41,782 nt of DNA from an uncultured Bacilli bacterium (GTDB taxonomy: Bacteria; Bacillota_I; Bacilli_A; RF39; UBA660). Positions within the stretch are counted from its first letter, which is position 1. Every line of letters begins with the position of its first letter. Below the pieces are notes generated by a model. That model was not told the origin of the DNA, did not search any database, and was given only the letters and a program-made list of their open reading frames with translations. Below are positions 29,542 through 35,555 of the stretch, in pieces. Position numbers and translations under genes: made by a program. The stretch is taken from NCBI GenBank assembly GCA_944363715.1, contig CALVUX010000006.1, forward strand, positions 1 to 41,782, given 5' to 3'.

Positions 29542-29839
29542 ACAATTCACTATAACTTCCAGTAGCAACTAAAAGCAAAACCAACTCATTATTTTTATAT
29601 TTATATATAAGCAACCAATCGGGTTCAATATGACACTCTCTACAATCTTTATACACTTTATTATTTATCAGACTATGATCTTTATATTTAGCATCTAATA
29701 ATTCGCCATTTGCAAGTTTTTCTAATACATAAATTATTTTATCTTTATCTTTATTTTGCTTAATTATTTTTTTATAATCTTTCTTAAATCTAGAAGTTAT
29801 AACTATATTATACTTAGATTTTAGAAAGTCAAACTTCAT
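29531..29839 (-). CDS. YafQ-family mRNA interferase toxin
   Basis: 102 residues, RelE/ParE fold of the YafQ branch. It opens MKFDFLKSKYNIVITSRFKKDYKK and has the marker blocks LLDAKYKDHSL and YKDCRECHIEPDWLLIYK, where the family has catalytic His and Asp residues, then LVATGSYSELF. YafQ cleaves mRNA on the ribosome. The chosen ATG overlaps the end of the antitoxin gene (ATGAAGTTTGA), giving translational coupling; an upstream start (29854) is possible but less usual. The last codons supply the -35 of the T-box promoter. Confidence 0.88.
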   Translation of the reverse strand: MKFDFLKSKYNIVITSRFKKDYKKIIKQNKDKDKIIYVLEKLANGELLDAKYKDHSLINNKVYKDCRECHIEPDWLLIYKYKNNELVLLLVATGSYSELFDL

Positions 29840-30116
29840 TCTCCAAATCCTCAATTAATTCTCTAATACTATCATATTTTTTAGCATCTATTTTACCAGA
29901 CAATATATCATCACCTTCCTTCAAAGCTTCTAATAGTTCTTTATTAGGTCTAGGATTTCTAACTTCAAATGGTAAGCCATCGCACTTAATAATTTGCTTA
30001 ATAAAAATATTAATAGCTGTACTCATATTTAATCCTAAATCTTTTAAAATATTAGTTGCTTGTTCTTTATCTTTACTATCAACTTGTACATTAATAGCAC
30101 TATTTAAACTAGCCAT
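29829..30116 (-). CDS. RelB/DinJ-family antitoxin
   Basis: 95 residues. The N-terminal half is a ribbon-helix-helix domain (SAINVQVDSKDKEQATNILKDLGL, then NMSTAINIFIKQI), followed by GLPFEVRNPRPNKELLEALKEG, the usual DinJ continuation. The acidic C-terminal helix would wrap the toxin. It lies first in the operon with AAAGGAGG, so antitoxin is made before toxin. RHH antitoxins repress their own promoter, with the toxin as co-repressor. Confidence 0.88.
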   Translation of the reverse strand: MASLNSAINVQVDSKDKEQATNILKDLGLNMSTAINIFIKQIIKCDGLPFEVRNPRPNKELLEALKEGDDILSGKIDAKKYDSIRELIEDLENEV

Positions 30117-30499: not shown

Positions 30500-31648
30500 T
30501 TAAATTAAACTTTGTAAGTTATAGTGTAATTTTAAACCTTCTAATAATATGTTTAAACTTGCATTTATATCTCTATCATTATGAGTTCCACATTTTGGGC
30601 AATCATATTCTCTTAAACTTAAATCTTTTAACTTTTCATTTTTATAACCACAATGGCTACATATTTGACTGCTTGGATAATAAGTATTTATCTTATAATA
30701 ATACTTTCCTTTTATCTTACTTTTCCATTCTATTAGAGAACATAATTTACTTAAACTTGCATCTGATAGACTTTTATTAAATGCTTCTTTCTTATCTTTA
30801 AACATATCTTTTACTAATAGACTCTCTGTTACAATAATATCATGTTCATATACTATTTCGTTCACTATATTATTTAAATAATGCTTTCTATAATTCTTTA
30901 TTTTAGCATAGATTCTTGCTATTTTTTCTTTTGTCTTTAAATAATTCTTACTACCTTTTACTTGTCTTGATAATTTCCTTTGTAATCTTTTTAATCTCTT
31001 TTCATATTTTGTTAATACTTTCTCATTACTATATTTAATACCATCACTTGTTACTACTAAATCTTTTATTCCTAAATCTATTCCTACTATTGTAGTCGGT
31101 GTTACTTTTTCTACTAACAAGTCTTCTTCTACTAATACACTTACATAATACTTATTAGTTGTTTCTCTTGAGATAGTAGTACTTAGAATTTTTCCTTCTA
31201 TTCTTTCTTTGCTTCTATATCCTCTTATTTTTACCTTACCTAATTTTGGTAATTTTATAAATCTAGTTAGTAAATCTACTTCTATATTACTATACTCTTT
31301 ACCTTTATAAGTACTTCTTATACAACTAGTTCTATAAGACTGTCTATTAAACTTACTCTTAAACCTTGGATATCCACTTCTTTTTGCAAAAAAGTTATTA
31401 AAACCATCTTCTAAATCAAATATAGAACTTCTTAAGGCACATGAATCTACTTCTTTAAGATATTCATATTGGTTTTCTAATTCTTTTAAATCTTTACATA
31501 AATCAAATGTTTTTTGTACTCCTTTTTCTTTTTGATAATTTAGATAATAGTTATAAACAAAACGAGCACATCCAAAAGTCTTATGTATTAATATCTTTTG
31601 TTCTTCATTTGGATATAATCTAAACTTATATGCTCTATATATTTCCAT
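30500..31648 (-). CDS. tnpB: TnpB RNA-guided endonuclease
   Basis: 382 residues, full length. N-terminal MEIYRAYKFRLYPNEEQ and helix-turn-helix, then a RuvC fold with Asp191 (GIDLGIKDLVV), Glu275 (IIVTESLLV) and the DRD of CGTHNDRDINAS (358-360). A zinc finger (C330, C333, C350, C353) lies between the last two. All catalytic residues are present, so the nuclease should be active with an omega-RNA. The known role of TnpB is cutting the donor site to favour element retention. The family was an ancestor of Cas12. The start ATG follows AAGAGGG. Confidence 0.93.
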   Translation of the reverse strand: MEIYRAYKFRLYPNEEQKILIHKTFGCARFVYNYYLNYQKEKGVQKTFDLCKDLKELENQYEYLKEVDSCALRSSIFDLEDGFNNFFAKRSGYPRFKSKFNRQSYRTSCIRSTYKGKEYSNIEVDLLTRFIKLPKLGKVKIRGYRSKERIEGKILSTTISRETTNKYYVSVLVEEDLLVEKVTPTTIVGIDLGIKDLVVTSDGIKYSNEKVLTKYEKRLKRLQRKLSRQVKGSKNYLKTKEKIARIYAKIKNYRKHYLNNIVNEIVYEHDIIVTESLLVKDMFKDKKEAFNKSLSDASLSKLCSLIEWKSKIKGKYYYKINTYYPSSQICSHCGYKNEKLKDLSLREYDCPKCGTHNDRDINASLNILLEGLKLHYNLQSLI

Positions 31649-31763: not shown

Positions 31764-32504
31764 TTATTCTCCATTAGTTAGTAATTCCTTAAATCTATTT
31801 TCTTTACTAGCATCATCACTAGAATCAATAAAATCTACACTAAAACTCTTATTATCAAAAGTAATACCCCTAAGTTCTAACTGTCTAACTAACTCTTTAC
31901 TAACACCTAAAGAACCATCAAAAAACTTAACATCTCCTAAAACTCTTCTAATTTTTTTCTTAATTAAAGGATAATGGGTACAACCTAAAACAACGTTATC
32001 TATATCTTTATATTTACTAAGATTATCATCTAAATACTGATTTATTTTTACATCATTACCTTCTTCAATAAGTTCTGCAAGTCCCTTACAAGGAAGAAGT
32101 ATTGTATTTTTATTATCATATTTATTAAACAAGGTAAGAAACTTCTCACTCTTTATTGTCCCTTCCGTAGCCATAACTAAAGTTTTACCTTTAGGATTAT
32201 AATCATGTACCATCTTATAAGCAGGCTCAATTGCAATAAATAAGGTATCAGGATATTCTTCTCTTAACCTCTTAACACAAATTGCACTAGCCGTATTACA
32301 AGCAAGAACAATCGCAACACATCCCTTATCTAAGAGATAATCAACTACCCATTTAACAATACTATAGACTTCATCACTACTCTTATCACCATAAGGATTA
32401 TTTTTAGAATCTGAGTAATATACAAATTTAGCATTTATCCCTTGCTTTAAAATCTCTCTTAAAACAGTAACACCACCAATTCCAGAATCTAAAACTCCTA
32501 TCAT
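31764..32504 (-). CDS. murI: glutamate racemase
   Basis: 246 residues. It converts L- to D-glutamate for peptidoglycan. Both catalytic cysteines are visible: Cys69 in VLACNTASA and Cys174 in VLGCTHYPLI, along with the opening IGVLDSGIGGVTVLREI. The start overlaps the truA stop by 4 bases, so the two are coupled. No terminator is seen before the tnpB element downstream. Confidence 0.95.
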   Translation of the reverse strand: MIGVLDSGIGGVTVLREILKQGINAKFVYYSDSKNNPYGDKSSDEVYSIVKWVVDYLLDKGCVAIVLACNTASAICVKRLREEYPDTLFIAIEPAYKMVHDYNPKGKTLVMATEGTIKSEKFLTLFNKYDNKNTILLPCKGLAELIEEGNDVKINQYLDDNLSKYKDIDNVVLGCTHYPLIKKKIRRVLGDVKFFDGSLGVSKELVRQLELRGITFDNKSFSVDFIDSSDDASKENRFKELLTNGE

Positions 32505-33244
32505 ATATCATCCTCCAAAGTAGTTTTAACTAAATAAAGTCCACATGGCTTCGCTGTCGCCCCATTCTTACCCCTTACTTTACTTTCAAGTATTCTTTTA
32601 ACTTCATAAGGCTCTATCTTACCAGTACCAACTTTAAGTAAAGCACCAACCATATTTCTAACTTGATATCTTAAAAATCCACTACCAACAAACCTAATAT
32701 CTAAAACATCATTCTTTCTTGTAATAGATGCTTCATATATAGTCCTAACACAATTTTCTTTAACATTATTTTCAGTAACAAAAGCTCTAAAGTCATGTTC
32801 ACCTTCAAAAAAGTGTATTGCCTTTCTCATTCTACTAACATTAAGAAGATAGCCATGTTGATAAATATAATTTCTCATCATTGGATTAAACTCTTTCATA
32901 TTTATATAATAATGATACTCTTTTCTTAAAACATGATACCTAACAAAGTAATCATCAGGAACTTCCATCGCTCTATTTATATGTATCTCATCACTCAAAT
33001 AACTATTCAATGCTCTTTTTAACTTATAAGGAGTAATATCAACATCCAAATCTAAATGAGCCACCTGATCAATTGCATGAACCCCTTTATCAGTTCTACC
33101 AGCAGCGACTACTTTAACACTTTTATTATTATTAATTTTATAAAGAGCATCTTCTAACTCACCTTGTATAGTTCTATACCCCTCTTGTTTCTGATACCCC
33201 TTAAAATTAGTACCATCATAACTAAATCTAATCAAAAATCTCAT
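32501..33244 (-). CDS. truA: tRNA pseudouridine synthase A
   Basis: 247 residues. It makes pseudouridine at tRNA positions 38-40. The catalytic Asp52 lies in AAGRTDKGVHA, and RFLIRFSYDGTNFKGYQKQ at the N-terminus and GSGFLRYQVRNMVGALLKVG near the end are typical. In Firmicutes truA usually follows the ecfA-ecfA'-ecfT genes; here it follows two degenerate ATPases directly, with 4 bases between, and ecfT is absent. Confidence 0.96.
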   Translation of the reverse strand: MRFLIRFSYDGTNFKGYQKQEGYRTIQGELEDALYKINNNKSVKVVAAGRTDKGVHAIDQVAHLDLDVDITPYKLKRALNSYLSDEIHINRAMEVPDDYFVRYHVLRKEYHYYINMKEFNPMMRNYIYQHGYLLNVSRMRKAIHFFEGEHDFRAFVTENNVKENCVRTIYEASITRKNDVLDIRFVGSGFLRYQVRNMVGALLKVGTGKIEPYEVKRILESKVRGKNGATAKPCGLYLVKTTLEDDI

Positions 33245-33248
33245 AATA

Positions 33249-34034
33249 TCACTTCACATTCCAATATATATCTTTAATAAGGTCCATAACACTTTTTCTT
33301 CTAGGTAACTTAACATTCTTCTTCTCTTTAACTAATAATATAAAGGAGACTATATCAGGTCTTTTAATATCATATTTACTATCAAAGAAAATATCACTAC
33401 AATTACCTTCTACTAACACTTTATTATCTTTAAGTACTATTAAATAGTCAGTATATTGATATAAGTAATTAGGATTATTACTATAAATAACTATAGTCCT
33501 AGCAAATTTATCTTTTAATCTTGTAATAATTCTAATAAGTTTCTTTCTAAGATTTAAATCAAGTCCTCTAAAAGGCTCATCTAATAGTATTACTTTAGGA
33601 TTTGTTAAAAATGCTAAAGCAAACTGCAATAGTTTTAACTCACTCCCTGTCAAAGTAGAAATGCGTCTTTCTAAAATATCTATCTTAAGTCCTACTATTC
33701 TTAAAGAATCTTTTATTTTTTTATCAATATCATCTACTTCAAGTTTTCTATATCTAATATATTCTATAAAATACTCATAGATATTATCTATATTAAATAA
33801 ATTAACAAATCTCTTCTCTACAAGCTCAATATCATTTCTAAACAAATAGTAATTACGCCTTAACTTTCTAATTTTATTAAAGTAAATAATACCCTTACTA
33901 TCATCTTCTAAAGATATTAATCTAAGTAATTTATCCCCATTCTCTCCATATATACCAGTAATCTCTCCTTTAGGTATAACAAAGGATAAATCAGAAAAAA
34001 TTTTACTATTAACATGAGAAAACTTTATTTCCAT
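33249..34034 (-). CDS. degenerate ECF-type ABC ATPase (EcfA2 position)
   Basis: 261 residues. It has the overall ABC ATPase order but a broken nucleotide site: the Walker A reads GENGDKLLRL with no GKS/T, as if several residues were lost. The signature is LTGSE instead of LSGGQ, and the switch His is absent (IVIYSNNPN). Walker B is intact (VILLDEPFRGLD). It probably cannot bind ATP by itself. It overlaps the upstream ATPase gene by 10 bases and precedes truA. Its partner has the complementary defect. Use of the pair without EcfT is unclear. Confidence 0.8.
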   Translation of the reverse strand: MEIKFSHVNSKIFSDLSFVIPKGEITGIYGENGDKLLRLISLEDDSKGIIYFNKIRKLRRNYYLFRNDIELVEKRFVNLFNIDNIYEYFIEYIRYRKLEVDDIDKKIKDSLRIVGLKIDILERRISTLTGSELKLLQFALAFLTNPKVILLDEPFRGLDLNLRKKLIRIITRLKDKFARTIVIYSNNPNYLYQYTDYLIVLKDNKVLVEGNCSDIFFDSKYDIKRPDIVSFILLVKEKKNVKLPRRKSVMDLIKDIYWNVK

Positions 34035-34795
34035 AAATGCTCCACCATCCCCAAAGGACTAAGATTAATCTTAGGAACAAGATTATAATACTCTAATTTA
34101 ACAGATAAATCTACCATAAAAGGAAGTTCTAGACCAATTTTATTTAATAGACTATCATCACTTAATACTTCTAACATATCACCATTACTAACAATCATCC
34201 CTTTATCAAGTACATAAATAATACTATTAATAGTATAAACTACTTCATCCAAAGAAGAACTAGAAACAACTATAGTAATACCTCTTGTCCTTAACTGTTC
34301 TAAAAAGCTCATAAACTCTTCTTTTTCTAAAGGAGACAAAAAAAGACATGGGTCATCTAATAATAATAGTTTAGGATTATAAATAACTTTAGATGCTAAA
34401 AAGACTCTAAGTTTCTCATATTCATTTAAATCTTTAATATTTTTATTAAGTAAATTAGTAATCTTTAAATCTTTAGCAATATCTTTAACTAAAGTATTAA
34501 TGTTTCCATCATCAAGACCCAATCTTTCTACTGGATATCTAATAGTCTTTAAAACAGTATCAAAGTTAAAAGAGATGTTACCTATATATGAAATATCTTT
34601 ATTATCTTTAATTATCTCTTTATCATAAGTAATTTTATTCTTAACATTAACTAATCCTGCAAGTACTTTAAGTAATAAACTCTTTCCACTATTATTAGAA
34701 CCAGTAATAAAAATAAAAGAATTAAGGGGTATTTCTATACTAAACTTCGTAAAAGGACCTAACATTAAATTATCAACACGAACCAATGCTTTCAT
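34025..34795 (-). CDS. degenerate ECF-type ABC ATPase (EcfA1 position)
   Basis: 256 residues. Walker A is intact (GSNNSGKS, 32-39), but the signature reads LNEYE (123-127), Walker B ends in Asp-Asp (LLLLDDP, 143-149) rather than Asp-Glu, and the switch His is missing (VVSSSSLDE). ATP binding is likely but efficient hydrolysis is not. It starts 1 base after the SDR stop and overlaps the next ATPase. In the standard energy-coupling-factor module such ATPases power vitamin uptake together with EcfT and an S component. Confidence 0.8.
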   Translation of the reverse strand: MKALVRVDNLMLGPFTKFSIEIPLNSFIFITGSNNSGKSLLLKVLAGLVNVKNKITYDKEIIKDNKDISYIGNISFNFDTVLKTIRYPVERLGLDDGNINTLVKDIAKDLKITNLLNKNIKDLNEYEKLRVFLASKVIYNPKLLLLDDPCLFLSPLEKEEFMSFLEQLRTRGITIVVSSSSLDEVVYTINSIIYVLDKGMIVSNGDMLEVLSDDSLLNKIGLELPFMVDLSVKLEYYNLVPKINLSPLGMVEHLWK

Positions 34796-34796
34796 A

Positions 34797-35555
34797 TTAT
34801 TTATCCTTCTTCTTTTGAATATTATAGTTAATTCTAGTTACAAACTTATCCGGTAAGAATCTCACTATAAACTTAACAAATTTCATCTTAAAACCTGGAA
34901 TAATTATTGTCTTACCACTAAACATCTTCTCTACAGCATATCTTGCTACATAACTACTACTTAAAGTTTTAACAGCAAACTTAACCCCTGCTCTATTATT
35001 AAAGTTAGTATCAACTGGTCCTGGACATAAAACAGAAATTTGTACTTTACTCTTACGTCTTCTTAACTCTTCATTAATCGCTAAACTAAGACGATAAACA
35101 TAACTTTTAGAAGCATAATAACTACTAAGTAATGGCCCTGCCATAAAAGCAGCACTTGAAGATACATTAAGAATAATTCCCCTATCTTTTTTTATCATAT
35201 CTTTTAAATAAAACTTACATAACATATCAAGCGCTCTAATATTAACATCTAACATATTAAGTTCAGTATTAAGGTCTATATCAAAAAACTCTCCAAACAC
35301 TCCAAAACCTGCATTATTAACAAGGATATCAATATCATCATTTTTAGTTAAGACATAAAGTTCTTTAACTTTTTGTAAATTACTAAGATCAACTACAATT
35401 ATCTTAACTTTAACTTTCCCATCTATAGTAGTTTTAACTTCTTCCAAAGCTTCCCTATTTCTACCAACAAGTATTAAATCATAATCTAATTTAGCAAGGT
35501 TTAGTGCAATATCACGTCCAATCCCACTACTTGCCCCTGTTATCATTGCCTTCAA
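34797..35555 (-). CDS. short-chain dehydrogenase/reductase
   Basis: 252 residues, classical SDR. NAD(P)-binding TGASSGIG (6-13), NNAG (80-83), catalytic Ser in NVSSSAAF (132-134) and Y146-x3-K150 in SYYASK. The tail is basic (KKKDK), and GRNREALEE after the first strands suggests NADP use. The start is TTG with GGAGGTGG 8 bases upstream; ATG three codons later lacks spacing. The substrate is unknown. It is the first gene of the run with the ATPases, truA and murI. Confidence 0.87.
   Translation of the reverse strand: MKAMITGASSGIGRDIALNLAKLDYDLILVGRNREALEEVKTTIDGKVKVKIIVVDLSNLQKVKELYVLTKNDDIDILVNNAGFGVFGEFFDIDLNTELNMLDVNIRALDMLCKFYLKDMIKKDRGIILNVSSSAAFMAGPLLSSYYASKSYVYRLSLAINEELRRRKSKVQISVLCPGPVDTNFNNRAGVKFAVKTLSSSYVARYAVEKMFSGKTIIIPGFKMKFVKFIVRFLPDKFVTRINYNIQKKKDK

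Follow-up and report, generated by a model that had tools for sequence, protein, structure and literature searches.

The window (the whole stretch of DNA that was analysed, 41,782 nucleotides from an uncultured member of the Bacilli) carries two adjacent ATPase genes, hereafter A1 and A2, in the operon order SDR - A1 - A2 - truA - murI. A1 and A2 overlap by 10 bp, and A2 lies 4 bp from truA, without an ecfT in between. The two frames, at the same coordinates as in the initial annotation, and the features on which the argument rests are listed here in the direction of the minus strand.

34797..35555, minus strand: SDR oxidoreductase gene, immediately upstream of A1 (SDR models)
34025..34795, minus strand: A1, degenerate EcfA-type ATPase of 256 aa, P-loop kept (open reading frame; ECF ATPase HMM and PDB sequence matches; CbiO/EcfA fold match)
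34679..34702, minus strand: A1 Walker A GSNNSGKS, residues 32-39, part of composite site 1, retained (residues 32-34 and 36-39 invariant in 19 genus sequences)
34415..34429, minus strand: former A1 signature, LNEYE in place of LSGGQ, residues 123-127, part of composite site 2, lost (motif table)
34352..34357, minus strand: A1 Walker B Asp147, kept, and Asp148 at the catalytic Glu position, in LLLLDDP (motif table)
34256..34258, minus strand: Ser180 at the A1 switch-His position (motif table)
34028..34123, minus strand: A1 C-terminal ECF-type region PFMVDLS...MVEHLWK, residues 225-256 (conservation in EcfT-less genera)
33249..34034, minus strand: A2, degenerate EcfA-type ATPase of 261 aa, P-loop lost, signature kept (open reading frame; ECF ATPase HMM; low-confidence model with ABC fold)
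33930..33947, minus strand: collapsed A2 P-loop GENGDK, residues 30-35, part of composite site 2, lost (motif and genus alignment)
33639..33653, minus strand: A2 signature LTGSE, residues 128-132, part of composite site 1, retained (Ser131 and Glu132 invariant in the genus)
33558..33581, minus strand: A2 Walker B/D-loop DEPFRGLD, residues 152-159 (Asp152, Glu153, Pro154 and Asp159 invariant in 19 genus sequences)
33252..33359, minus strand: A2 C-terminal region PDIVSF...DLIKDIYWNVK, residues 226-261 (conservation in EcfT-less genera)
32501..33244, minus strand: truA, directly downstream of A2 (TIGR00071 above cut-off; same order in genus loci)
31764..32504, minus strand: murI, overlapping truA (open reading frame; synteny)

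Two further genes were recognized by reading, a TnpB/OrfB-like transposon protein with C-terminal CxxC pairs beside murI (30500-31648, 382 aa) and a RelB/DinJ-like antitoxin (29829-30116, 95 aa). The genome is that of a Candidatus Onthousia-like gut member of the Bacilli, and its relatives are Candidatus Onthousia and uncultured Bacilli and Tenericutes MAGs. As read from the gene orders of the loci, the neighbourhood of SDR and A1 is common to many genera, both those with EcfT (EcfT+) and those without it (EcfT-less).

Profile searches identify both proteins as ECF-type ATPases, and ECF ATPases are among the PDB sequence matches. The scores are far below the equivalog cut-offs, with 95 bits for A1 against its best model, TIGR04520 (cut-off 315), and 77 bits for A2 against TIGR04521 (cut-off 330). 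The predicted structure of A1 is usable (pLDDT 69.7), and its best fold match is CbiO/EcfA (5x41_D; Z 21.8, rmsd 3.8, 240 residues). The A2 model (pLDDT 60.3, N-terminus below 50) has an ABC fold and is too poor to judge the geometry of the P-loop.

Neither protein has a complete ATPase site, consisting of Walker A, signature, catalytic Glu and switch His. The initial annotation had described A1 as having a good Walker A and no signature, catalytic Glu or switch His, and A2 as lacking the Walker A GKS/T and the switch His while keeping the DEP. The motifs agree with this description: A1 combines an intact GSNNSGKS with LNEYE, Asp148 and Ser180 at the three lost positions, and A2 has a P-loop region (GIYGENGDKLL) that is three residues shorter and without GKS/T, and a switch region (IVIYSNN) without His. 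Left unmentioned was the A2 signature LTGSE, which is central to our interpretation, and missed was the complementarity of the two sets of defects, which erase one composite site and spare the other.

The same gene order and motif defects were found in 18 relatives from independent contigs of the genus, and the A2 frame is open, with no stops, in 35 of 35 genomes. The most divergent congeners (~40% identity) have the same motif pattern with small exceptions, namely GPSNSYKTL in G102 and a retained Glu in G108. Invariant throughout the genus are the A1 Walker A (bar residue 35), A1 Asp147, A2 Ser131 and Glu132, and most of both C-termini. One could suspect a sequencing, assembly or binning artefact, or a pseudogenisation that is recent and confined to this genome, considering that the assembly is in 39 contigs with an estimated contamination of 4% and that the relatives are MAGs. 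That 18 independent contigs share both the gene order and the defects makes this negligibly probable, and the presence of the same defects across the genus excludes sequencing or assembly error as well as recent decay.

Within the genus, purifying selection acts on A1 as well as on A2. Their dN/dS values (NG86 medians over 15-20 genus sequences) are 0.26 for A1 and 0.17 for A2, next to 0.14 for SDR, 0.15 for TruA and 0.26 for MurI; the A1 value exceeds those of SDR and TruA. From the open and cleanly coupled frames, the initial annotation had argued against simple decay, and had named dN/dS as a check. The purifying selection on both genes upholds that argument. It also bears on the idea that the A1 and A2 frames are kept solely for the translation-coupled expression of truA and murI, for which the 10-bp overlap, the 4 bp to truA and the overlap of truA with murI would provide a suitable layout. 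Coupling predicts open frames, however, not amino acids, and is contradicted by dN/dS values well below 1 and by the residue-specific retention; several genera, moreover, have no pair and run from SDR directly into truA. This reading, strongly disfavoured by dN/dS, is very improbable. The remodelling of a known system seen in the window is real and conserved, and it is unusual.

Beyond the absence of ecfT between A2 and truA, already pointed out in the initial annotation, no EcfT was detected elsewhere in the genome by two profiles. The CbiQ/EcfT model PF02361 has no match anywhere in it, and a family-specific EcfT profile has none in the 35 congeners, this genome included. The same profile matches 47 of the 98 family genomes and detects degenerate EcfT in other genera that PF02361 misses. 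The search for S-components covered the PF12822, PF07155 and BioY families. PF12822 and PF07155 are not matched in this genome, and BioY is matched neither here nor, above the cut-off, in the 35 congeners. Almost none of the EcfT-less genera match S-component models. Matches to PF12822 and PF07155 are also missing from most EcfT+ relatives, so that the function of these relatives is itself unsure.

These results bear on the possibility that the pair energises or gates transport by ATP binding only, via a highly diverged membrane partner encoded elsewhere. EcfT does diverge strongly in the family, as seen from remnants that PF02361 misses and the family profile catches, and in a Listeria ECF transporter, Mg-ATP binding without hydrolysis expels the S-component (PMC10368641). 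Yet the very profile that detects remnants finds none in 35 congeners, the S-component families are missing as described, the Q-loop region is eroded, and a cycle without hydrolysis cannot reset. We consider a hidden membrane partner quite unlikely.

Other S-components were observed in the family. At one locus (L195, G092:C53), in a genome whose truA-linked pair is degenerate, a separate cassette of S-component, single ATPase and short T-like protein has the look of a group I ECF transporter that was acquired independently. By reading, S-component-like proteins lie near ApbE-like proteins at L196, L197 and L198 (G003, G015 and G001, all EcfT+ genomes), and in two of these three they are also adjoined by FMN-binding-like proteins.

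How the pair came to stand without EcfT can be followed across the family. The survey comprised 98 family genomes, nearly one per genus, from which 83 loci were fetched and their gene orders read; the order-level search yielded genomes of the same family only, and the distribution given here is that within the family. The ancestral order (rplQ) - SDR - A1 - A2 - ecfT - truA is present in many genera. The order A1-A2-ecfT-truA is kept in about a third of the genera, and 32 of the 98 genomes have an EcfT above the Pfam cut-off. In seven genera (L119, L125, L149, L164, L167, L190 and L193), the ecfT slot holds a short membrane ORF of 187-219 aa with an open frame. These ORFs can be aligned with EcfT, and in the best cases the alignment extends to the C-terminal RxYN...RTxY region; part of the middle coupling segment is lost. 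Such shortened EcfT remnants may be functional small membrane partners of degenerate ATPases. In the remaining genera, A2 abuts truA or lies close by.

At least eight changes of EcfT state are required on the TruA tree, and EcfT loss is recurrent. The window falls in a supported clade of 13 rows. The initial annotation had taken relatives with normal motifs and a neighbouring ecfT as a sign of recent decay or sequence error. Such relatives occur in other genera of the family; within the genus, as within the 13-row clade, there is no EcfT and the defects predominate. A few EcfT-less genera (G075, G155) have nearly normal A2 motifs, which indicates that EcfT loss preceded site loss in some lineages.

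Further reduction was found when the truA flanks were examined in 16 genomes where the pair was not clear or the fetched stretch did not include truA; eleven of these gave a clear picture. Five (G088, G094, G097, G020 and G071) have reduced A1/A2 pairs of 150-224 aa, with the P-loop kept in G071 only, and six (G018, G027, G034, G061, G066 and G081) have no pair beside truA. Since some lineages reduce or lose the pair beside truA, it is not indispensable family-wide. In the ultra-reduced pairs of 150-224 aa (L233, L235, L236, L237 and L238), the two genes still sit side by side, immediately before truA.

The two ATPs of an ABC dimer are each held between Walker A and B from one subunit and the signature from its partner. 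Viewed as composite sites, the defects of the two proteins are complementary. Site 1 (A1 Walker A/B and A2 signature) is retained in the 42 EcfT-less genera at approximately the EcfT+ level. The A1 P-loop Lys is present in 39/42, a share that drops to about 40/47 once five reduced pairs found beside truA are added, as loci were picked by similarity to the window proteins and the sampling favours copies with an A1 P-loop. The A1 Walker B Asp is kept in 40/42, the second-position Ser of the A2 signature in 39/42, its final Q/E in 36/42, and the A2 D-loop Asp in 27/42. Site 2, in turn, is lost. The last P-loop Gly of A2 remains in 7/42 (33/36 in EcfT+ genera) and a small residue (G/S/A) at the fourth signature position of A1 in 9/42 (31/35 in EcfT+ genera), with the A2 Walker B Asp in 22/42 and the A1 D-loop Asp in 5/42. 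By a joint criterion, 32 of the 42 genera retain site 1 only and none retains site 2 only.

Retention of site 1 does not include its catalytic residues: the A1 catalytic Glu is found in 2/42 and the A1 switch His in 1/42 EcfT-less genera. Among the 39 that bear the P-loop, the catalytic Glu position holds Asp in 21, Asn in 13 and Lys in none, although one base substitution, of a kind that AT-rich DNA favours, would turn Glu into Lys. In asymmetric ABC proteins, non-catalytic sites typically have Asp here. A P-loop and a catalytic Glu within one subunit occur in 32/35 EcfT+ versus 5/42 EcfT-less genera (Fisher p 4.5e-13, a value that ignores shared ancestry), and in three of the five exceptions (L173, L182 and L189) a deletion has removed three residues from the A2 P-loop. 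When EcfT loss and site loss were compared in a tree-aware paired test, the four supported pairs were too few for a significant result.

The most conserved columns in EcfT-less genera are the P-loop, the Walker B Asp and the C-terminal P/L/Y/W of A1, together with the signature and the C-terminal K/Y of A2. In the A1 C-terminus, Pro225, Leu234 and Tyr237 reach 100% and Trp255 98%; in that of A2, Lys254 reaches 100%, Tyr257 95% and Pro226 93%. The C-terminal residues of both ATPases are as conserved as in the EcfT+ relatives. The Q-loop and the segment that follows it are eroded in EcfT-less genera. As the ATPases have grooves in which the coupling helices of EcfT are anchored (PMC4820897, PMC10368641), this erosion is consistent with a loss of EcfT docking.

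A mirror-image asymmetry was observed in a clade that keeps EcfT (L140, L165, L175, L178 and L180; G032, G058, G070, G074 and G077). There, the A1 P-loop is lost, and A2 retains its catalytic Glu along with a P-loop or what is left of one (GKT/GKS in 4/5), which suggests a one-site ECF module, possibly still hydrolysing.

The dispensability of the pair in some lineages keeps alive the view of a slow relict decay, with the pair as a vestige of a lost vitamin transporter under weak residual constraint, for example against toxic misfolding, and on a one-way path to loss. In favour of such a process, the family shows a graded series, from the full module over EcfT remnants of 187-219 aa, no EcfT, and pairs of 150-224 aa to none beside truA, and hits to S-component models are very rare in EcfT-less genera. 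The pattern of constraint points elsewhere, with dN/dS values in the genus (0.17-0.26) like those of truA and murI, no stops in any of 35 A2 genes, and retained residues that cluster on one composite site and the C-termini, with a 32-to-0 asymmetry. Relict decay is unlikely, if still a serious contender.

With moderate confidence, we favour a non-transport heterodimer in which one ATP is bound and barely hydrolysed, and which works with a partner other than EcfT. On this reading, A1 and A2 descend from the two ATPases of an ancestral ECF module linked to truA, and transport would have been lost in this lineage together with EcfT. The pair may survive as a heterodimer that has one composite nucleotide site. 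A1 would supply both Walker motifs to it, and A2 the LSxSE signature and, probably, its D-loop; the mirror site would be dead. ATP would be bound with little or no hydrolysis, because A1 has Asp/Asn for the catalytic Glu and no switch His. Rather than fuel, ATP could be a clamp or a ligand that sets the conformation of the dimer, and the pair a nucleotide-dependent scaffold or sensor for a non-EcfT partner.

Mutants of working modules offer a parallel. A single Glu-to-Gln exchange in either EcfA abolishes both ATPase activity and transport, and in the double mutant ATP binding closes the dimer (PMC10368641). Because the present defects are worse than a single Glu-to-Gln, transport would be implausible even given an EcfT. 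Of the non-transport ATPase or scaffold first proposed, the non-transport part stands, a transport role being very likely gone; the word ATPase fits poorly, since the surviving composite site is without catalytic Glu and switch His and hydrolysis is unlikely. More tentatively, the ECF motors of this family may have become non-transport heterodimers repeatedly, with EcfT and S-components gone, one site erased and the other binding-only, and would then make up a new class of nucleotide sensors or scaffolds derived from ABC proteins.

Research on ECF modules treats them as motors of vitamin uptake and as drug targets. The family offers an extensive natural series of motors that have survived the loss of their transporter; one ATP site is gone, as apparently is hydrolysis, yet selection persists. 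Such a series shows what an ATPase pair can do without EcfT, and makes roles of EcfA beyond transport testable. For many uncultured gut Bacilli, the annotation as "ECF transporter ATPase" and the vitamin uptake inferred from it are probably wrong.

The open-access literature searched for degenerate ECF ATPases, EcfT loss and RF39 held nothing describing such a pair. Soluble ABC proteins, such as ABC-F, ABCE1 and Rad50/SMC, keep two hydrolysing sites and have extra domains. The pair would resemble them as an ABC dimer acting without a membrane partner, and no link to them was found beyond the general ABC fold. An ABC-F-like ribosomal role, prompted by the ribosomal-operon neighbourhood, was considered and no evidence for it was found.

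The closest known system is the group II ECF module EcfA1-EcfA2-EcfT of Firmicutes (rplQ-ecfA1-ecfA2-ecfT-truA), and in S. aureus the ecf module has rplQ and truA among its neighbouring genes (PMC6102330). The window pair shares with it the locus order minus ecfT, the two adjacent ATPases, both ECF C-terminal regions, and the closest HMMs and folds. It differs in the missing EcfT, the eroded Q-loop region, the lack of any subunit that has a P-loop together with a catalytic Glu, and the loss of the site 1 catalytic Glu and of both switch His. In the asymmetric heterodimeric ABC proteins TAP, CFTR, ABCG5/8 and TM287/288, one composite site holds ATP unhydrolysed, commonly with Asp for the Walker B Glu, and the other site hydrolyses ATP. 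The residues of site 1 appear to follow the pattern of such a non-catalytic ATP site. Unlike these proteins, the window pair has no transmembrane domain, and its second site is destroyed by the loss of the A2 P-loop and the A1 signature.
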